Assembly (NCBI GenBank): GCA_028641055.1
Contig: CM054061.1
Span: 34,343,877 to 34,407,876 of the forward strand
Reading direction: 5' to 3'
Length of the DNA stretch: 64,000 nucleotides
Source of the DNA: Alopecurus myosuroides
Lineage: Eukaryota > Streptophyta > Magnoliopsida > Poales > Poaceae
This document shows, piece after piece, positions 47,473-63,417 of the stretch. Below the pieces are notes generated by a model that saw nothing but the letters and a program-made list of their open reading frames with translations, was not told the DNA's origin and searched no databases. The position numbers were made by a program, and so were the translations under genes. How positions within the stretch are numbered: position 1 is the first letter of the stretch; each line of letters begins with the position of its first letter.

Positions 47473-47540
47473 TGTTAACTAACAGGCTAGATACGGCTAG
47501 TTAGGTAACACCGTGCAGAGTACTTTCACTAGTGGAAACA

Positions 47541-47735
47541 GTGCCTTTTGTCCCGGGTCGTAAGGGCCAGTTGTCCCGGTTGTGCAACCGGGATGGGCTG
47601 GCCGGGACAAATGGCCCTCCCATTGGTCCCGGTTGTGACAGGACTCGGGATGGTAAGGATAGGCCACGTGGCGAACCTGGGCCAGGGAGTTCGTCCCGGT
47701 TCGTTCAAGGGACCGGGATGGATACTTTTTTGACA
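47541..47735. repeat. E5 left subterminal repeats (GTCCCGGTT)
   Basis: Direct and inverted copies of TTGTCCCGGTT / AACCGGGA(C/T) run through this stretch, matching 55610-55830. Confidence 0.85.
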
Positions 47736-47769
47736 AAAAAATATATATAATCGTTCAATTTCCGCGTCC

Positions 47770-48005
47770 AGGCCCACGTCTTTTGGGCTCCTGTCTCCCA
47801 ATCCCGAGCCGGCCTCCCCTTCCCCAACCGCGTCCAGGCCCACGTCTTTTATTAAGCCCACTGGTCACATTTTTTTGTCAAAAGGGCCCACTGGCCCGCG
47901 TCTTTTGTTATGGTCAGTCAACGGTTCGAAGGGCCCACTGGCCAGCGTCTTTTATTATGGTCAGTCAATGGTTCGAAGGGGCCACTGGCCAGCGGCCGTT
48001 GGCTG
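47770..48005. repeat. Short tandem repeats before the Pro-rich gene
   Basis: Two to three imperfect 50-60 bp units share GGCCCACTGGCC, GCGTCTTTT and TATGGTCAGTCAA. They lie in the region that would hold the promoter of the 48299 gene. Confidence 0.7.
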
Positions 48006-48298
48006 GCTCGCCTGCTCCCTTAAATTAAGACCACAGGACGGTCAAAGGGCCACTGTCGCCTCGTCTTCCCGCCCCGCCTCGGCTTCCCGCGCCCCCGCTT
48101 CCCCACGCGCGCGTGCCACAGCTGCAACCGCCGCCCACGCCTCGGCTCCTGCCCGCATTCATGGCCGCCTGCAACCGCCGCCACGTTCAGCCCGCCGGTT
48201 GGCATGCCAGCCCACCCCGAGTCCTTTTTAAAGGCCCCCCGCCGCCCGTACAACCCATCCACCCCGGCCGCGCCCAAGGCAGAGCAACCATAGCCACC

Positions 48299-49366
48299 AT
48301 GTCCCGCTGGTTCGGCAGCGGCTCCGGCAAGCGCCCCAGGAACGACCACGAAGGCTCCTCGAGCGGCGCCGGCCGCGTCCCACCACCGCCGGCGGAGGCC
48401 TTCGGCTACGGCCCTGGAGGTGTCCGCCTCGGCGGGGCGCCGCGCGTCCCCGCGCCACCTCCGGCTGCACGCCCGCCGCCCAGCGCCGCGCCCAAGGGCA
48501 AGAGGTTCCGCCGGTACGTCCGGGGGGATGAGGCCGAGTGGCACTGGAACAACGCCACGCCGGTGTTCTATGCTGACGTCCACCTCCCGGACGGCTGGCA
48601 CCTGAACCCCCAGCGGATCCCTGTGCCGCCGGTCCCGACCGGCCAGGCGCTGCTCGAGGAGATCGACCGCCGGCGCGCGCTCCTGCCGGCCCCCGTCCGC
48701 AGGGAGCGCGCGTACGCGCGCAGCTCCCCCTACTGGGCCGCCTGGCTCGAGCAGGAGCACGAGCAGCGCCGGCGCTCCTTCATCCCCGCCCCCCACGAGG
48801 TGGACGTCGCGGACTACCCGCCGCCACCGCCCGGCCGGGAGAGGGAGCTGTGGCTCCTGGAGGACATCCCGGAGGACTTCTCCGGGGAGGAGGACCCCGT
48901 GCTCCGGGCCGCCATGGAGGAGGCCTGCGAGGCCTCCCGCCGCTCACTCGTCGAGGACGAAATCAAGCGGTAGGAGCGGGTCGTGGCCGCCGCCGCCGCC
49001 GACGCCGCCGCCATGCCGCCGCCGCCGTCCCCTAACGAGCCTACCCCCTGGTGGCAGCAGATGTACGCCGACTGGGAGGCGTCCGAGGACAAACCACCGC
49101 ATCAGCCGCTCCCCCCAGGCCTGGAGTACGGCATGTCCTGGGCCTGGACCGGCGGCGCTTGGGCGCCGGAGCAGGAGGAGCTGCCCCCACCACCACCGCC
49201 GCAGGAGGCGCTTCCCCCGCCACCGATGTACGCGCCTCCGATGCCCCCGATGCCTCCACCCCCGGCGAGCCCGGCCCAGCCGCCTGCCCACCTGTGGAAG
49301 CCGCCCCCTACCAGTGCATCTCCTCCGACGAGGAGGACGACTAGATCTGTGCGCCCCCTAGACTAA
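48299..49366 (+). pseudogene. E5-encoded Pro-rich protein of unknown function (GW / IPVPPVP family), with an internal stop
   Basis: The ATG at 48299 has a good plant context (GCCACCATGTC). The first 224 codons end in TAG at 48971-48973; the same frame continues without break to 49366 (WWQQMYADWEASEDKPP, then Pro-rich), so the TAG probably replaces a sense codon. No named domain is recognised. Residues about 90-107 (PDGWHLNPQRIPVPPVP) match the E4 protein. Downstream are EIDRRRALLP, an Arg/Glu helix and an acidic DIPEDFSGEEDP segment. Near 49300 a second frame offers an acidic tail (ISSDEEDD) that looks more natural, so a frameshift is possible. The N-terminus is basic (GKRPRNDH), possibly a nuclear signal. 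Confidence 0.6.
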
Positions 49367-49682
49367 GCTACCCCCCCCCCAAGAAAACGGCCGGCCACCT
49401 GTGGCCGCGCCGCCGCCCCCTTTAATTATGCAAGTCCGGCCGGCCGCCTGTGGCCGCGCCGCCCCTACCTATGTAAGCAAGGCCCCTGGCCCCCTTTTTT
49501 AATATAAAGTTGTGTGCCCAAGCCTACCGTGTCCCTAGCCCATCCCCGCCGGCGATCCGCCGGCGGGATCTGTCTACTCGTTCCCGCCGCCGGCAGGGCT
49601 TCGCCGAGCCATGTCCACTCGTACCCGCCGCCTGGGGTGTTCGTTCGGCCTGGAGAGAGGGCCGCGATTTTTATACACCTGT
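49367..49682. other. GC-rich 3' flank of the E5 Pro-rich gene
   Basis: There is no gene. Two copies of a CTGTGGCCGCGCCGCC-containing segment (about 49397 and 49450) are seen. The rest looks like a 3' untranslated region. Confidence 0.5.
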
Positions 49683-49768
49683 GCCTATAGTCCCGGCCCG
49701 TGCCACCAACCGGGACTAGAGCCCCTTTGGTCCCGGTTGGTACCACGGCCCGGGACCAAAAACTAATT
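49683..49768. repeat. Internal cluster of E5 subterminal-type repeats
   Basis: Copies of TAGTCCCGG, CCGGGACTA and TTTGGTCCCGGTTGG lie well inside E5, between the plus-strand and minus-strand gene blocks. This is analogous to the internal cluster of E2 at 5155-5332. Confidence 0.75.
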
Positions 49769-50005
49769 TCGAATTTCGGTGCACCCCTGCGCGCCCAAAA
49801 TTTTTTAGCGCCAAAATTTGAAAAGGGTTAAGTTTGCACATTAACAACTTCTATATACTTTCAAATTTGACAAAAATTCCAACATGAAAAATGCTAGAAT
49901 TTGCAAAACTAATTTAAATCCATTTTTCGTTTAACTAAATAATTATTCTAACTATTGAAACTATTAATTATTTTTTCATTTGTATATAATTTGAATATAA
50001 AAATG
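49769..50005. other. AT-rich segment of E5
   Basis: No coding sequence. It lies beyond the stop of the minus-strand DRM-like gene and so may serve as its 3' flank. Confidence 0.4.
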
Positions 50006-51172
50006 TTACAATTTTTTATTTCTCTCGTGATCTTCCGAGTTAGTCCAGAGCATACAAGGCATCCTGGGTGATTTATATAAAGTTCGACAAAGCGAGTTGT
50101 ACCTTATTGACACGGTGAATTTGAGATCTTCGTCTACAACAGAAAAACCATAGTTTTCCTTCGAAGGTTTACTCTGCGCATCCACACGTATTTTCCCTTT
50201 ATCCCGACCCCCGCTTGAAAACATAGTAACTTCCGTGTACGCGGCAAGCCGCAGCGGGAGCATCAGACTTGTTGTAGATGACTTAACGGCTTTCAAGATT
50301 CTAGAATAGTGGTAGAATAAAGCAGGTTGCTCGCCCTCCAGACCCCCAATCACAAAGTCAAAGCGACCATATCTAGCAATAAATGATGCAATTCTATCAT
50401 TAGTGAGAGACTTCACGTCGGCAATCTCAATTAAAGTGCCAGTTTGTGTCTGATCCCACCAACCCCTCAGAATCCTCCTATTAACTTCACCTATCTCAAC
50501 TGAAATCATTGTCTTCATGTGGATGCCAAGCCTGTGCAAAGCTATCTCTCCTCCTCCAATACCGGAGAATAAGGACACCACATTAACACCATTGGGAAAC
50601 ATGTTCTTCAACACCGACAAGTGGCAACCCACAGTATCAATTTGGAATGAATTGCCAAGAGATTTGTACCTCTCTCTCTTGGCGACTCCCCTTGTGTGGT
50701 TTCTTGGGAGACCGAGTAAAAATTCCATCTCATCTGGCTCTAGAGGGGCAACCTTGTTCTTTCCAACCCAAACAAGGTTCCATCTTCTGCACTCGTCCAT
50801 AACATACCTCTGAACAGTTAGAGGTGGTGGATTACTTGAGCCTGCAAGAGTACGTTCGATCTGTTTTATCAGAATTGGACTTGCCACACGGGTTTGCAAG
50901 CAATCGAGCTGCTTTCTAGGATCCCAGGAAGGCCACCAGTTCTCATAATGAGGGAATGCCTCAAATATGGTCTTTGGAGCGAGAGGAAGGAGACGTGACC
51001 TATTCTCAATTGGCAAATTATGGATGTAGCCTCTTTCTTGAGCAGCTGCATAGAAGTGCTTAGAATCCACAAACTCCGGCTCTATGTCATACAAATTTCT
51101 GGAAATTTCCACCCATACACTTTTTGGAGCTAGGGCCTCATTTTCATAGTAGAAGTAGGGTGGCTTGTTCAT
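50006..51172 (-). CDS. DRM-type DNA cytosine methyltransferase domain captured by E5, catalytic motif missing
   Basis: An intact 388-residue frame. DRM enzymes do RNA-directed de novo cytosine methylation and carry permuted motifs, and that order is visible: IEPEFVDSKHFYAAAQERGY (31-50), WVGKNKVAPLEPDEMEFLLG (135-154), motif X SLGNSF (171-176), then motif I SLFSGIGGGEIALHRLG (200-216) and DQTQTGTLIEIADV (240-253). At 271-280 FDFVIGG runs straight into LEGEQPALF. In active DRM2 a stretch with the catalytic Pro-Cys lies between GG and LEG, so it has been lost or was absent in a DRM3-like donor. UBA domains are absent, and residues after about 300 no longer resemble DRM. DRM genes have introns but this copy has none, suggesting capture from a spliced copy. 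Enzymatic activity is not expected. Confidence 0.88.
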   Translation of the reverse strand: MNKPPYFYYENEALAPKSVWVEISRNLYDIEPEFVDSKHFYAAAQERGYIHNLPIENRSRLLPLAPKTIFEAFPHYENWWPSWDPRKQLDCLQTRVASPILIKQIERTLAGSSNPPPLTVQRYVMDECRRWNLVWVGKNKVAPLEPDEMEFLLGLPRNHTRGVAKRERYKSLGNSFQIDTVGCHLSVLKNMFPNGVNVVSLFSGIGGGEIALHRLGIHMKTMISVEIGEVNRRILRGWWDQTQTGTLIEIADVKSLTNDRIASFIARYGRFDFVIGGLEGEQPALFYHYSRILKAVKSSTTSLMLPLRLAAYTEVTMFSSGGRDKGKIRVDAQSKPSKENYGFSVVDEDLKFTVSIRYNSLCRTLYKSPRMPCMLWTNSEDHERNKKL

Positions 51173-52020
51173 CCTCTAGAGTCGATGTCAGTCCTGGCTG
51201 CTTGTCCATCCTCTAGAGTCTGCTCTGCTCTGCTCTACTGCTCCTTGTGGCTTTGTGAACTTATGGTTTGATTTGAGAATTTCAAAACTTTGATTTGATA
51301 ATCTTTTGGCCGGAAGCACCTAGCAATATCTTTTAAACCTTGTTTCTCTCCATATGCTATTTGTACTTCTCATCGGCTCTAATGTTTCTCTACCTGATTC
51401 TACTTCTCCTCTGCCTAGTTTGGGTTGTTTATGGTGGTTAACTCCAATGAATAACAATAGAGGCCTGCCATAATCACTTGTTCTATACCGTGTGTCAACA
51501 CATACTACATCTCGAAAGTAGTTATAATCCTGCAATATCTGTCAGGATGGTATCCGTACTATCACTTCGAAATGTTCCTGCAATATCTGCCTACAGTTAT
51601 CTCATACTCGGATATGGGTCATAGTTGTCAGCTTTTTACCGGTCAATACAAAATACTGATCAAACAGAACTATATGATCATGTATTCCACGCTTATTATT
51701 ACACATCACCAACATACGGAGGAGAGAGAAACAGAAAAGTGGGTGGGTGTGTGCCGCTGGTTGGAATAATAATGAAGTCAGACTGGTCATAGTTGTCAAG
51801 CACTCAATGCTTGCCAGCTTTTGACCGATCAATACAAATTATTGGTCAAACTTGCACCTACTCCATTCATAATCACATAATATGTATAAATATCGTTTTG
51901 GCTAACAAAATCTCGTTCATACTACGTTATAAGAACTATGATCATGTATTCCACGTTTATTATTACACATCACCAACAACATCCCTATCTAGTCTTCTGA
52001 ATTTTCTTCGTGTCCCTTGC
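51173..52020. other. E5 spacer between the DRM-like gene and Tnp2
   Basis: No gene is supported. CATCCTCTAGAGTC occurs twice (about 51170 and 51208), and ACTGGTCATAGTTGTCA resembles GGGTCATAGTTGTCA 170 bp earlier. Both genes read leftward, so this would hold the promoter of the DRM-like gene; no TATA box stood out. Confidence 0.45.
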
Positions 52021-55000
52021 TTATGATCGCTTCAGCCGTAACCATGGAGCATCTTCATTATTTAACGGGATGGTGGGGTCAGCTTTCACTGTGAAGGGTG
52101 GAATTTCAACAAACTTATTATAATCTTCTGACATGTCTGTCGTGTCCTCGATTCCCACGATGTTTCTTTTTCCTGAGAGAACTATGTGACGCTTCGGCTC
52201 ATCGTATGATGAAATTGTTCCCTTATTTTTTCTTTTCTTCGGTCTGGAAGACATGTCCTTCACATAGAAGACCTGGGCCACATCCTTGGCTAGAACGAAT
52301 GGTTCGTCATTGTAACCAATATTGTGGAGATCCACTGTTGTCATTCCATAAAGCGGGTCTACCTTTACCCCTTCTCCATTCAGGTTGACCCATTTGCACT
52401 TGAACAAAGGGACCTTAAAAGAAGCTCCATAGTCAAGTTCCCATATCTCCTCTATGTAACCATAGTATGTGTCATTTTTTCCATTCTCGTTTGTTGTATC
52501 AAAGCGGACACCACTGTTTTGGTTGGTGCTCTTCTTATCTTGGGAGCTCGTGTAAAATGTATTCCCATTTATCTCGTACCCTTGAAAACTCCCAATAGTC
52601 GAAGATGGTGACCCTGCCAACATGTACAGCTGATCTTCAACAGTGGTGTCATTTATAAGATGTGTTTGCAACCAACTTCCGAAAGTCTCCATGTGTTCGC
52701 GTTTAATCCATGAGTCATCCTTCCCCGGGTTTGCAGACCGTACAATATTCTTGTGTTCCTCGACATACGTAGCCATGAACATAGAATTTTGTAGAACTGT
52801 GTAGTGTGCTTTGGTCAAAGAATGCCCGTCCCTAGGTATCATTGTTTTCTTTCCCAGCGTTCCTTTTCCCCTCAGTCTCCCCTCATGCCGCGATTCAGGA
52901 ACACCAATTGTCTTAAGGTCAGGAATAAAGTCAACACAGAACCCAATGACCTCCCCTGTTCCATAGCCCTTCGAGATGCTTCCTTCTGGCCTAGCACGGT
53001 TATGAACATATTTCTTCAAGACTCCCATGAACCTCTCAAAGGGGAACATATTGTGTAGAAATACCGGACCGAGAATATGAATCTCTTCACATAGGTGAAC
53101 AAGGAGATGAGTCATAATGTTGAAGAAGGATGGTGGGAACACCAACTCAAAACTAACAAGACACTGGACCACATCCCTCTGTAATCTTGTCAGAATTTCT
53201 GGATCGATTACCTTCTGAGATATTGCGTTCATGAATGCACATAGCTTCACAATGGGTACTCGAGCATTTTCCGGTAGAAGCCCCCTCAATGCAATCGGAA
53301 GCAACTGCGTCATAATCACGTGGCAGTCATGAGACTTCAGGTTTTGGAATTTTTTCTCTGCCATGTTTATTATCCCCTTTATATTCGACGAGAAGCCAGA
53401 CGGAACCTTGATACTGTAAAGGACTTCAAAGAATATTTCCTTCTTTGCTTTAGTAAGAGCGTAGCTGCTTAAGGAATGGCGCCCTGTATCTGTGTGCTTG
53501 TTGCTTGGGTCTTTCATACGTTGCTGGTCCTCCCGTGCTTCAGGCGTATCTTTTGACTTCCCATACACGCCCAGGAAGCATAGCAGATTGATACAGAGAT
53601 TCTTTGTCACGTGCATCACGTCGATCGAAGACCGGACCTCTAAAACTTTCCAATAGGGTAGCTCCCAAAATATAGATTTCTTCTTCCACATGGGTGCCGC
53701 TTATCAGGGCCGTACGGAACTGGTTGGCTGCCAGCAGCCTTACCAAAGATTACTTCTAGGTCCTTGACCATATCGAATATATCATTACCACTACGGAGCT
53801 CAGGCTTCTTTCGGTTATCTGCCTCACCTCTGAAATGCTTCCCTCCTTTTTTCCTTAAGGGATGCTTGATCGGAAGAAATCTACTATGCCCCAGGTATAC
53901 AACCTTTTTACATTTATCCAAAAAAACACTGTCAGTCTTATCTAAACAGTGTGTGCATGCATTGTATCCCTTGTTTGTATGACCGGAAATGTTACTAAGA
54001 GCAGGCCAATCATTGATGGTCACGAAAAGCAACGCCCGTAGGTCAAATGGCTTTTGTTCGTTCTCATCCCACACACGTACACCTGGTTTGCCCCACAGTT
54101 CTAAGAGTTCTTCCACTAATGGCCTTAGATACACATCAATGTCGTTGCCAGGTTGCCTCGGGCCTTGGATGAGAACTGGCATCATAATGAACTTGCGCTT
54201 CATGCACAACCAAGGAGGAAGGTTGTACATACATAGAGTTACAGGCCAAGTGCTATGACTGGAGCTCTGCTCCCCAAAAGGATTAAAGCCATCTGTACTT
54301 AGACCAAACCATAAGTTTCTCGCCTCTCCTGCAAAGTCTGGAAAGTCTCTCTCGATCTTTCTCCACTGCGATCCATCGGCGGGGTGCCTCAACTTTCCAT
54401 CTTTCTTACGGTCGTCGTTGTGCCATCGCAACAACCTAGCATGCTCTTTGTTTCTAAACAGACGTTTCAGCCGTGGTATTATAGGAGCATACCACATCAC
54501 CTTAGCAGGAACCCTCTTATGGGGGGGCTCGCCGTCAACATCACCAGGATCATCTGCTCTGATCTTATACCGCAGTGCAGTGCATATCGGACATTCATCC
54601 AAATTCTCGTACTTCTCACCGCGGAAGAGAATGCAGTCATTAATGCATGCATGTATCTTCTGCACATCTAATCCTAGAGGGCAGAGAGCTTTCTTTGCTT
54701 CGTACGTACTCTCAGGCAATTCGTTATCCTTTGGAAGTTTTGGCTTCATTAGTTGAAGTAAACTCTCAAATGCCTTGTCAGTCACATCGTTTTGTGCCTT
54801 CCATTTCAGCAACTCCAGTGTGGTACCGAGCTTTGTGCTACCATCTTCGCAATTTGGGTACAACAATTTTTTGTGATCCTGTAACATGTTGTCCAGCTTC
54901 AACCTCTCCAATTTATTTTCACAGTCTTCCCTTGCATCAGCAATAACTCGGCCAAGATCATCATCGGGCTCTTCTGATGCCTGTTCTTGATTACCTCCTT

Positions 55001-55321
55001 CTTCTGCATTCTCTTCCATTGCAGTATCTCGTATTCAGGGAACAAAGGATCTTCTTCTTCTTCATCATCGTCTTCCATCACAACCCCTTTTTCTCCATGC
55101 TTGGTCCAGCAATTATAGCTGGGCATGAAACCTCTCCGAAGTAGATGGCCGTGAAGGATTCTTTCGGAAGAATGTTCTCTGACGTTCCGACAATCAACAC
55201 ATGGGCAACACCTGAAGCCATTATCTTTGTTCGCCTGAGCTACAGCAAGAAATGCATTCAGGCCTGCCATATACTCGGAAGTGCGTCGGTCACCGTACAT
55301 CCATCGCTGCCGTGCATCCAT
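52021..55321 (-). pseudogene. Tnp2-type CACTA transposase of E5, frameshifted
   Basis: The likely start is ATG 55321-55319 (MDARQRWMYGDRRT), right after an AG acceptor, opening the transposase-associated domain (CCPCVDCRN, HLLRRGF). The frame is lost near 55030, where one base appears deleted. It resumes at 55019 (EENAEEGG) through the Tnp2 core (CPLGLDVQKIHACINDCILF, LSTDGFNPFGEQSSSHSTWP, YNLPPWLCMKRKF). It shifts again near 53700, resuming at APMWKKKSIFWELPYWK, IDVMHVTKN, DUF4218 (FPFERFMGVLKKYVHNRARP) and DUF4216 (YYGYIEEIWELDY) to TAA at 52021. Without the two shifts it would be a full-length transposase of about 1,080 residues. It is a different lineage from the E2 transposase. Confidence 0.88.
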
Positions 55322-55584
55322 CTGCATCATATAATTAAGTTTATCAAAATACATATTAATACAGAGATGACCACAGTACATCGACAAATAATACTTTTTT
55401 ATGTATCAGTTACAGATGAAAAAGATAATTTGTTAACCTCGGTCGAAGATACCATTTTCAGTGAGCTTGTGTGCGTCTCGGGAATTTCGTCGAACACCTC
55501 GTGTGCATAGTAAAAAAAACACACTATAACACCACACTCTCTCACACCTCCAAGGAAAAAAAAGATGGAAGGAGGGGGGGCTGG

Positions 55585-55604
55585 GGCAGTATATATAGGG
55601 GAAG
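55585..55604 (-). promoter_or_regulatory. Candidate TATA box of the E5 Tnp2 gene
   Basis: On the minus strand CCCTATATATACTGCC lies between the subterminal repeats and the gene, about 270 bp before the proposed ATG. Transcription would start inside the element, and a 5' UTR intron is likely because an acceptor precedes the ATG. Confidence 0.5.
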
Positions 55605-55607
55605 GGG

Positions 55608-55832
55608 GCATTGGTCCCGGTTCGTGGACTGAACCGGGACAACAGGTCATGCGCGTGCCACGTGGCCTGTGGCTAGGCATTGGTCCCGGTCCGTGGCAAG
55701 AGACGGGACCGATATGCCCCCCACGAACCGGGACCAATGCGCCCAGGCGATTCCTGTTGCCCCGGGCGCACGAACCGGGACCAATGCAGGGCATTTGTCC
55801 CGGATTTGGTTGCAACCGGGACAGCTGCCCCC
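55608..55832. repeat. E5 right subterminal repeats (GTCCCGGTT)
   Basis: About nine copies of TTGGTCCCGGT / AACCGGGACCAA in both orientations run up to the terminus at 55863. Confidence 0.88.
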
Positions 55833-55866
55833 CGGCCCCCTGGACGAGAGGGTTCCACCAGTGTTT

Positions 55867-55995
55867 AGCTTATTCTGCACGTCATGCATATAACAGATTA
55901 ACACCTCTGTATTTGTATCTATCTTATCCCTACGTGGGCTATATAAACATGATGAGGCCGGTGGGTGTTCACCACGGCAAAACCTCAGTTTGACT
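55867..55995 (+). repeat. Copia 5' LTR, right part
   Basis: Matches 60400-60528 of the 3' LTR with one difference seen (CATGATG against CATAATG). It contains TATATAAAC near 55939, a possible LTR TATA box. Confidence 0.9.
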
Positions 55996-60332: not shown

Positions 60333-60345
60333 GTTTGAGGGGGAA

Positions 60346-60528
60346 TGTTAACTAACAGGCTAGATACGGCTAGTTAGGTAACACCATGCAGAGTACTTTA
60401 GCTTATTCTGCACGTCATGCATATAACAGATTAACACCTCTGTATTTGTATCTATCTTATCCCTACGTGGGCTATATAAACATAATGAGGCCGGTGGGTG
60501 TTCACCACGGCAAAACCTCAGTTTGACT
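60346..60528 (+). repeat. Copia 3' LTR (183 bp)
   Basis: Begins TGTTAACTAACAGG directly after the purine tract and ends TTTGACT before the CACCA duplication. It is uninterrupted and so defines where E5 entered the 5' LTR. Confidence 0.92.
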
Positions 60529-60767: not shown

Positions 60768-60782
60768 CACTGGTAGAAAATA

Positions 60783-60975
60783 GGCCTATAGTCCCGGTTC
60801 GCAAAGGCCAATAATCCCGGTCGCGCAACCGGGACTAAATATGCGCGACTAAAGGGCCCCCCTTTAGTCGCCCCTCTTATGAACCGCGGCTAAAGGCCCG
60901 TCCACGTAGGCGGGTGGCGTGCGCCGAGGGCGGAGGACCTTTAGTCCCGGCTGGCCACACGAACCGGGACTACAT
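60783..60975. repeat. E6 left subterminal repeats (TAGTCCCGGTT)
   Basis: Direct and inverted TAGTCCCGG and CCGGGACTA copies. The right-end counterpart is 63178-63360, where TTAGTCGCGGGT variants dominate. Confidence 0.85.
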
Positions 60976-60978
60976 GCT

Positions 60979-61085
60979 ACTCCCTCCGTATCAAAATATA
61001 AGATGTTTTAGCCATTTCTAGACAACATGCATCTAGACATGTTTTAGTGTGTGATTCTCTTTTATTCATTTGGGTTTCTAATTAT
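60979..61085. mobile_element. Stowaway fragment (one end only)
   Basis: TACTCCCTCCGTATCAAAATA starts a typical grass Stowaway. The sequence continues with a Stowaway-like interior (CATCTAGACATGTTTTAGTG), but no matching second end follows. Confidence 0.6.
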
Positions 61086-61220
61086 TTTTCACTCCAATTT
61101 TTGACTCCCATTTTTCCACTCCCTTTTTTCGCTCCAATTTTTCACTCCCTTTTTTTTCAGAATTTTTATTATTTGCTTAGTGTCTAACTACAATTATCTT
61201 TAGTCAAATTTCTTACTCGT

Positions 61221-61291
61221 GGTCAAACTTCTCGCTCGGTCACCCATCCTCCCACTACTCTAGCACTAGCACGCTTAACTTCCGAGTTCCA
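61221..61291 (-). other. 5S rRNA-derived module in E6
   Basis: On the minus strand GGAACTCGGAAGTTAAGCGT, then a gap and AGGATGGGTGACC, match the A-box and C-box halves of plant 5S rRNA. It reads toward the left terminus, about 450 bp away. The AT-rich flank (61330-61358) also matches the flank of the E3 module. Confidence 0.75.
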
Positions 61292-61369
61292 TCCCGTCCC
61301 GCATCCAAGTATTTCGCACGCATGTATGTGATACTAGTATCATATCAATCCTATTAACAAGTTGGTCGA

Positions 61370-62318
61370 TGCCACATTTCTTTATTATCTGAATTTCAAA
61401 TAAATCTTTTAATAAACAAAAGTAATGATGTAATTAATAATTTTGAATAAATAAATAAACATTAACTTTTTAATTTGTATTGTTTCTAAAAAAATATTCA
61501 GAAAAATAAAACTAATTCATTTTAAAATCTTAAAAATACAAATAATATATCAAAATATTCAGAAAAATAATACTAATTAATTTTAAAATCTTAAAAATAC
61601 AAATAATATATCAAAAAATTCAGAAAAATAAAACTAATTCATTTTCCCCTTTCCTAAATGCAAAATAAAATCTAATAAAATTCATGAACCAAACCATATG
61701 AAATCTAAACCATATTAAATTTGCAGATCCAAGTTTCGACTATTATTTTGGACACAAGAACTGTTTTGGCAATGACTATCTGTGAGAATGATTTGAACCT
61801 AACTTTTAAAATACATAACCAAAATGGACAAAATAAAATATTCTGGATAGATATTGAAAAGATCTATCCATAGCACTTAGCCTCACATCAAGGTCAACAA
61901 TCAAATGAAAATACCATCCTTTTTAATAAAAGACCAGTAGGCTCTTCTATGATGTTTTAGAATGAGTTCAAAAATGAATTTCGAAGTAAATCCAACTGGA
62001 TGAGTTTGGTATTGACTAGATCTATGTTTTCCTGGCTTAGATTAATTTTTTGACCTCTAGATTTATTTTTGGTGAACAGATATAGAAACAGTAGTTTTTG
62101 GTGAACAGATATATAAACGGTAGTTTTTCTGTTTTGTTTTATTGATGTGTTTTTGTTTGTTTTCTTGATGTGTTTTTGTTTGTTTGTTTTGAAATGTGTG
62201 TTTGACATAATATAGAAATAATATAGCTAGAAATTAATTTAGAAATAATATAGAAATTAATAGAAAGACATATATCCATTACATATATCGAACGCAAGAT
62301 GCGGTACACAAACAACAT
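61370..62318. other. AT-rich non-coding interior of E6
   Basis: No gene. Local direct repeats are present, for example two near-identical 60-bp stretches with TTCAGAAAAATAA and TTAAAATCTTAAAAATACAA (about 61497 and 61557), and two copies of GGTGAACAGATATA (62071 and 62100). Low complexity explains the open frames seen. Confidence 0.55.
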
Positions 62319-63049
62319 CTACTCAAGCTCCGAAGAGTAGATGCGGAACCACTCGAAGGCAACGTATGCATCTATTGCTGCATAATCGAGATTGATCCGG
62401 TCCAGTGGGTTCTTCCCCCAATACATGTGATTCTTCGAGGGGAAACGAGTCTTCATGGTTTTGTAGTCGGCGTGGATGAAGGCAGTTGCCATCGGAGCCA
62501 TCCCGGTCTTGTGCCCGTACAGCTCATCAAAATGGATAAGGTCCTGAAGATCAATGTAGTGATCTTCAGGTATCTAAATACCCAAACGCATCAACTTCTG
62601 CCGGTCTTGAGTGATGTCAACGCTACAGAAGTTGTACCTCTTGTTAACAAGAAAATCAACAAGTTCTGGAGATTGCTTTCAACTACTGCAACAACAAAAA
62701 TAGAACACGTGTTTGATATGTTGCAACACGTGTATTCTTCCAATGCAACAAACAAATAAAAAATGCAACACTATCCTACAAGAGAGATTGTACGTGTGCG
62801 TTACCTTGCCCATTGGAAGACGAAAACGATCTCCTTGAAGGCAATCTGGATGACGGCAACATCCCGTTGATTCGCCGTGTACTCTAGATCAAGCCCGAAG
62901 AACTTATGGTGTTCATCGGCTTCTTCATAGAGATTGCTCAAATGCTTAAGAGCACCGGGGAGCCTCTGGCACATATTGGTGTAGGCCACGTCGAGATTCT
63001 TGCGGCATGGTGTGGACACACGCAGAAGGTTCCAAACGGGAGAACCCAT
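62319..63049 (-). pseudogene. Decayed 3'-5' exonuclease (WRN/RNase D-like) gene captured by E6
   Basis: Exon 1 (63049-62815) has the first exonuclease motif as FFGLDLEYTANQRDVAVIQI (Asp-x-Glu). A canonical intron (GT at 62814, AG at 62686) follows. Exon 2 (62685-62319) reads SPELVDFLVNKRYNFCSVDI, a TAG, then IPEDHYIDLQDLIHFDELYG, MATAFIHADYKTMKTRF and DYAAIDAYVAFEWFRIYSSE. The last has the Tyr-x3-Asp third motif. A TGA just after the splice junction and the TAG before IPEDH break the frame. The family trims nucleic acid 3' ends using two metal ions. The retained intron indicates capture of genomic DNA, unlike the intronless gene in E5. Confidence 0.8.
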
Positions 63050-63177
63050 GGGTGCTTGGTGGAGGAAGAAGAGAAGAGAGGAAGAAGAAACAGAGAGTCT
63101 CGGGTGCGTACTGTAGCAATGGCCTTCTGCCTCTCGCTCTCAAAATAAAACCAAGCGGGAGACGAGCAGTTTGGATC

Positions 63178-63360
63178 TTTAGTCGCGGGTGGCCAGGCTA
63201 ACCGGGACTAAAGACAGGGAGGCCAGCAGTTTGGATCATTAGTCGCGGGTGGCCAGGCCAACCGGAATTAAAGCCCTCCACGCGCTTCCCAAACCGCGGC
63301 GCATGACCTTCAGTCGCGGGTCGCCTCCCGAACCGGGACTAAAACCCCTTTAGTCATGGT
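63178..63360. repeat. E6 right subterminal repeats
   Basis: Copies of TTAGTCGCGGGT, ACCGGGACTAAA and related forms run toward the terminus at 63414. Confidence 0.85.
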
Positions 63361-63417
63361 GCGCATAATTTGGGGACTGAAGGGGGCGTATGGAAAGCCT
63401 TTTTTCTACCAGTGCTA

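Follow-up and report, generated by a model that had tools for sequence, protein, structure and literature searches.

Plant CACTA transposons are known to carry pieces of host genes, and such captures are common in wheat. On wheat 3B, as set out in the accessible text of PMC4290129, 140 CACTA capture events involve 145 genes, mostly as gene fragments; 38 of the 145 are transcribed, 19 of the 145 are expressed with dN/dS < 0.4, and the captures judged likely functional have dN/dS values mostly between 0.2 and 0.6. By these figures, as far as that text gives them, the base rate of kept function is not negligible, which argues somewhat against a blanket view of captured genes as passengers. The element described here, referred to as E5, resembles these and other plant CACTA captures in that a host coding fragment lies within CACTA ends and a TSD (PMC4290129 and PMC13317346, in their accessible portions). 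It differs from them in holding most of a transposase and in its payload, a domain from an enzyme of RNA-directed DNA methylation (RdDM). E5 is also distinct from a Pack-CACTA, which is non-autonomous and has no transposase, whereas transposase sequence is present in E5, though broken. Capture of a host gene in a CACTA element is thus of a known kind, while an RdDM-enzyme payload is unusual, and E5 provides a clean example of it.

VANC of the VANDAL elements is a transposon-borne anti-silencing protein that counters host methylation. E5 would, hypothetically, be like it in bearing a factor directed against methylation, and it is unlike it in both the protein and the transposon superfamily. A further point of comparison is DNMT3L, which we take to be unpermuted and to have no UBA domains. 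Judging from the available part of PMC2965745, DNMT3L is comparable to E5 as a non-catalytic, partner-type DNMT3 domain, by analogy only, and it differs in being an animal family that diverged independently. According to the same portion, DRM3 is a clade found throughout the angiosperms, and in Arabidopsis it supports RdDM (Henderson et al., PMC2965745). Like E5, DRM3 has a DRM fold and an altered motif IV region; unlike E5, it forms a separate ancient clade, its loop is present but altered, and E10, E148, and G173 are gone.

A CACTA element within a copia LTR

E5 occupies positions 47527-55863 (8,337 bp) of the window, the 64,000-nucleotide stretch of DNA analyzed here, and is oriented on the minus strand by its transposase. 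Its TIRs, CACTAGTGGAAAC / CACTGGTGGAACC, are of the CACTA/CACTG type and identical at 11 of 13 terminal bases, GTCCCGG-type subterminal repeats are found at both ends, and a TTT TSD is located at 47524-47526 and 55864-55866. The element interrupts the 5′ LTR of a copia element (47473-47526 and 55867-55995), and the copia 3′ LTR (60345-60528, plus strand) represents the empty site, with a gap-free match of 98.9% to the joined flanks. Together with the TTT duplication, this match fixes both boundaries of E5. The copia LTR pair shows 2 differences in 178 sites, corresponding to an age of ~0.44 My (count-based 95% range, 0.05-1.6 My) at 1.3e-8 substitutions per site per year, the rate that we assumed for LTR dating. 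Since E5 arrived after this young copia element, its insertion is young and the element has been recently mobile. The copia element itself has CACCA on both flanks and one open internal ORF of 1,044 codons. Another short CACTA-type element lies at 60768-63414, where CTA borders the matching CACTGGTAGAAA ends on each side; no ORFs of at least 150 aa were listed inside it.

A tnp2-type transposase was found in E5 with a broken reading frame. It is spread over three minus-strand ORFs: the Transpos_assoc part at 54899-55387 in a third frame, the tnp2 catalytic part at 53640-55019 (Transposase_21, 9e-85), and a DUF4218 plus DUF4216 part at 52021-53691, whose frame differs from that of the next ORF. 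We read these overlapping ORFs in three frames as the outcome of two or more changes of frame, which disrupt the transposase. Probably, E5 moved in trans or its transposase broke after insertion. In the interval that separates the DRM segment from the outer 3′ end, an internal fold-back (49684-49759, no strand assigned) consists of repeats of the CACTA-end type. It suggests that two CACTA ends were fused to form E5 or that E5 contains a nested remnant, possibly of a second CACTA end. A GC-rich ORF of 286 aa (48113-48973, plus strand) runs convergent with the transposase and has no Pfam match.

A DRM-type domain without its catalytic loop

The sequence-only reading of this locus had reported 388 open codons in E5, in the same direction as the transposase, and the ORF list agrees: a DRM-domain ORF of 388 aa runs from ATG to stop on the minus strand (50006-51172), and the transposase ORFs are on the same strand. 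Frame 1 of the plus strand over 50006-51172 contains many stops. In 200 first-order resamples of E5, the longest chance ORF was 338 codons (mean, 139) versus the 388 found, and an origin by chance is excluded by the 95% identity of the product to a host protein.

Residues 4-298 of the ORF (50279-51163, minus strand) form a DRM-type methyltransferase domain, which matches tobacco DRM 4onj at E = 2e-124 and Arabidopsis DRM2 at E of about 1e-114 to 1e-115; its match to the Pfam DNA_methylase family is weak (9e-06), barely over the cut-off. YYEN (containing Glu 10) and LGNSF (172-176), which we take to be motifs VI and X, are N-terminal of LFSGIGGG (201-208), presumably motif I. By this order, the domain is clearly assignable to the permuted DRM type, with motifs VI-X ahead of I-V, as the earlier reading had proposed and as the match to 4onj supports. 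Also upheld is its claim that the Pro-Cys loop is absent. FDFVIGG directly abuts LEGEQPALF in E5, whereas in grass DRM2 the 16 residues SPCNNLAGSNRHHRDG lie between them. All 16 are missing from E5 in the alignment, including the motif IV Pro-Cys nucleophile that characterizes catalytically active DRM2.

The N-terminal UBA domains of the DRM family are absent from E5. Homology to the Alopecurus protein P0002 begins at residue 264 of that protein and continues to its last residue; P0002 264-563 aligns to 51163-50264 with 94.7% identity by tblastn and so reaches past the domain end at 50279. The reading frame then continues into 85 codons of non-DRM sequence and a stop (50006-50263, minus strand). 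Consequently, the word "intact" in the earlier reading is correct for residues 4-298 and not for the whole frame, to which the 85 non-DRM codons are appended. For tail residues 300-388, six word-sharing candidates were retrieved and none had E ≤ 1; the sole Pfam match was to Acb3 (E 0.016, 15.5 bits versus a cut-off of 27) and was disregarded. AlphaFold2 predicts residues 314-388 to be disordered, with pLDDT < 50. At the other end, the 5′ capture junction (51163-51220, minus strand) falls in a 21-bp duplication, 51163-51183 / 51200-51220, whose copies are 95% identical. The start codon of the ORF is located within this duplication; it is therefore probably not derived from the host gene and is probably TE-derived.

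Loop-less DRM2 paralogues and the source of the domain

We analyzed protein relatives among the best 120 of 1,046 matches at E ≤ 0.001. The closest relative among the matches listed is P0002 of Alopecurus aequalis (563 aa, 95% identity to E5), followed by a Puccinellia protein at 89% and then by proteins of Alopecurus, Lolium, Avena, and Festuca and one JGI metagenome protein. Alopecurus and Puccinellia belong to Poeae, in which we also place Lolium, Avena, and Festuca. The eight closest among the matches listed, P0002-P0009, have domain identities of 79-95% to E5, and all eight are without the identical 16 residues, with the junction as in E5. Seven of them are full-length annotated proteins from five genera, and the eighth, P0005, is the JGI metagenome protein. 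The seven host proteins have lengths of 549-585 aa, carry a UBA region at the N terminus, and end at a natural stop (P0005 has 311 aa), whereas E5 has the domain only, preceded by a start that is probably TE-derived and followed by a foreign tail. UBA was scored over the Pfam cut-off in five of six scanned loop-less host proteins and under it in P0003. Across the 120 best matches, [ST]PC is retained in 110, one of which (P0012) is aberrant just after it; the 10 without it are P0002-P0009, P0054, and P0062, which fall into two Pooideae groups.

An annotation artifact in the host proteins is disfavored, as E5 lacks the loop in its own DNA and, within the best 120, only two groups show the loss. 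The E5 DNA thereby shows that the deletion is real and suggests the existence of a Poeae DRM2 lineage in which the catalytic loop is gone and the fold and SAM-site residues are conserved. Our literature search found no loop-less grass DRM2 or CACTA-borne DRM, which is weak evidence, with most subscription papers outside its scope. Among viral contigs, one stretch fitted a pattern and none encoded a relative.

The sequence-only reading had called for a tree containing both DRM2 and DRM3. In our tree of 59 rows, from which the loop columns were removed, E5 is sister to P0002 (100/99) and nests within a 9-row clade of loop-less Poeae DRM2 paralogues (100/99). The neighbors of this clade are DRM2 proteins from Alopecurus, Lolium, Avena, and Festuca that have the loop, and DRM3 lies far from it. 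The deletion common to the host proteins, together with this tree position, implies that the loss of the loop took place in the host gene and preceded capture. Because the host proteins have the same deletion, the absence of the loop is no sign of transposon adaptation. Most likely, on these alignments, the transposon copied an already loop-less and presumably inactive gene.

The earlier reading had offered a domain taken from host DRM3, the angiosperm-wide inactive paralogue, as an alternative source, and the available portion of PMC2965745 does describe DRM3 as lacking the motif IV Pro-Cys. The part of this proposal that stands is the copying of a dead host paralogue, in that the source was an already loop-less DRM2; the DRM3 part is not borne out. 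When E5 was forced together with seven DRM3 rows, the arrangement was rejected (AU p = 9.5e-5), and this result and the position of E5 outside the DRM3 clade rule out a DRM3 origin, to which we assign next to no probability. Moreover, in all 11 DRM3-type rows (eight of them named DRM3), altered sequence occupies the loop columns, and E10, E148, and G173, all kept in E5, are missing. We also considered whether the piece came from a reverse-transcribed, spliced mRNA, since it contains no intron and had been called "intronless." The term holds for the piece, but it is no sign of a retrocopy and is uninformative because one exon seems to encode the whole domain in the DRM2 genes of grasses. This exon structure is suggested by ORF starts and contigs of loop-bearing relatives rather than of the donor: the whole domain is in a single frame in P0033 (375 aa, 10,277-bp contig) and P0037 (5,901-bp contig), both grass-like and from JGI data, and P0038, P0057, and P0067 open with an apparent translated splice acceptor just upstream of the domain. 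As tblastn found no upstream DRM exons beside the piece within the window and the end of homology shows no clear poly-A tract in the sequence, a retrocopy is disfavored and, in our estimate, very improbable.

The 11 DRM3-type rows include P0194, P0203, and P0223, and Pro-Cys in motif IV is still present in seven of the 11, which is a misfit with the description of DRM3 in the accessible part of PMC2965745.

We therefore return to capture by a CACTA element of part of a loop-less host DRM2 paralogue, now carried as a passenger, which we regard as the probable account of E5. In this sequence of events, a CACTA element of a Poeae grass, in a host close to Alopecurus, would have taken up a segment of a single exon from a host DRM2 paralogue, spanning the first methyltransferase-domain residues to about the stop codon. 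The donor lineage would have lost its 16-residue loop beforehand and kept its N-terminal UBA region. A start codon at the junction, probably TE-derived, would then have opened a frame that reads on into non-DRM sequence, and E5 would recently have inserted into the LTR of the young copia element with the piece carried along. The passenger reading is favored by the broken frame of the transposase and by the non-DRM nature of the last 85 codons. If the piece acts at all, it would likeliest do so not as a protein but as a source of small RNAs that match the host gene.

Constraint, predicted fold, and possible roles

Over residues 4-298, six changes are private to E5, six are private to P0002, and two are undecided; with equal private changes, youth and selection cannot be told apart. 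Three of the six E5 changes (C41Y, N90D, and L273F) are at sites at least 95% conserved, compared to one of six in P0002 (I248V), a hint of relaxed constraint in this small set of substitutions. Faster decay of E5 was not seen in the change counts over residues 4-298, a comparison of little power. No stop or frameshift occurs over the same residues, and the open domain frame and the fact that changes in E5 do not exceed those in P0002 are compatible with constraint. However, 6-14 neutral missense changes predict 0.34-0.79 stops, so that a neutral sequence would have a 45-71% chance of showing zero stops (counting stops only), and the open frame is on that account no evidence of selection.

An AlphaFold2 model built from 43 sequences gave pLDDT values of 75-98 for residues 1-310 in 10-residue blocks, including 79 for block 281-290, which adjoins the deletion junction, and superimposed on eight solved DRM chains with rmsd values of 0.9-1.7 Å. 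As modeled, a stable E5 protein is possible. SAM-site and other conserved-motif residues are kept in E5 (G204, G206, G207, E226, G173, E10, and E148). We also mapped the five positions that are mutated in 4onq, an ntDRM mutant, and that presumably have an interface role. By this inferred mapping, R309 and Y590 are kept in E5 and E283 is outside the captured piece. F310 is N in E5; F occupies this position in 84 of 110 loop-bearing rows and in one of eight loop-less host rows. D591 is H in E5, and H is also the commonest residue here (77 of 110 loop-bearing rows).

Next most likely after a passenger is an effect through small RNAs on the donor gene, in which transcripts or siRNAs of E5 hit the host loop-less DRM2 gene in an epigenetic conflict at the RNA level. 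Captured sequences are siRNA reservoirs able to silence the donor gene, according to the part of a review available (PMC13317346, citing a maize study), and the 95% identity of E5 to the closest host protein among the matches listed, measured at the protein level, is consistent with this effect, which we nevertheless consider unlikely. The sequence-only reading had raised the possibility of a decoy or modulator. In this proposal, the UBA-less, loop-less domain would pair with DRM2 or occupy DNA, SAM, or RdDM partners and so dampen methylation of E5. The kept SAM-site and conserved-motif residues, the confident predicted fold, the retention of R309 and Y590, and a frame that is open in a recently mobile element are compatible with such a role, and inactive DRM/DNMT3 paralogues modulate active ones (PMC2965745, accessible portion). 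Expression of the UBA-less domain from E5-type copies, should it occur, would constitute a natural dominant-negative test of RdDM. Against a decoy, the loop loss is common to host proteins, E283 is outside the piece, F310 and D591 are replaced, the tail is mostly disordered and non-DRM, the transposase is broken, and the UBA domains, which DRM2 needs in vivo (PMC2965745, same portion), are gone. Hence, the decoy claim found no positive support; going by the model, an E5 protein decoy is possible, and we judge it quite improbable. The broader proposal is that loop-less Poeae DRM2 is a counterpart of DNMT3L that arose independently of DRM3, possibly twice, with the UBA-less CACTA copy as a recently moved decoy that blunts RdDM. 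We give this proposal, too, only a slim chance.

The loop-less host DRM2 clade is the more interesting by-product of this analysis, as it may represent a DRM clade that is non-catalytic and separate from DRM3. If its proteins modulate active DRM2, they would represent an independent origin of a regulator like DNMT3L or DRM3. P0002-P0009 keep E10, E148, G173, and the SAM-site residues, as E5 does, and motif X N174 is changed to D in two of the eight loop-less host rows. Root-to-tip distances are 0.22-0.29 in the loop-less clade versus 0.18-0.25 in its loop-bearing sister, suggesting at most mild relaxation, not collapse. P0054 (Triticum dicoccoides) and P0062 make up another type of loop-less DRM2, whose deletion junction differs. 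They are placed apart from the 9-row clade in the tree, but a single loop-less clade was not rejected (p = 0.08), so that two independent losses of the loop are favored rather than shown. P0054 and P0062 also have Q for E10 and A for G173.
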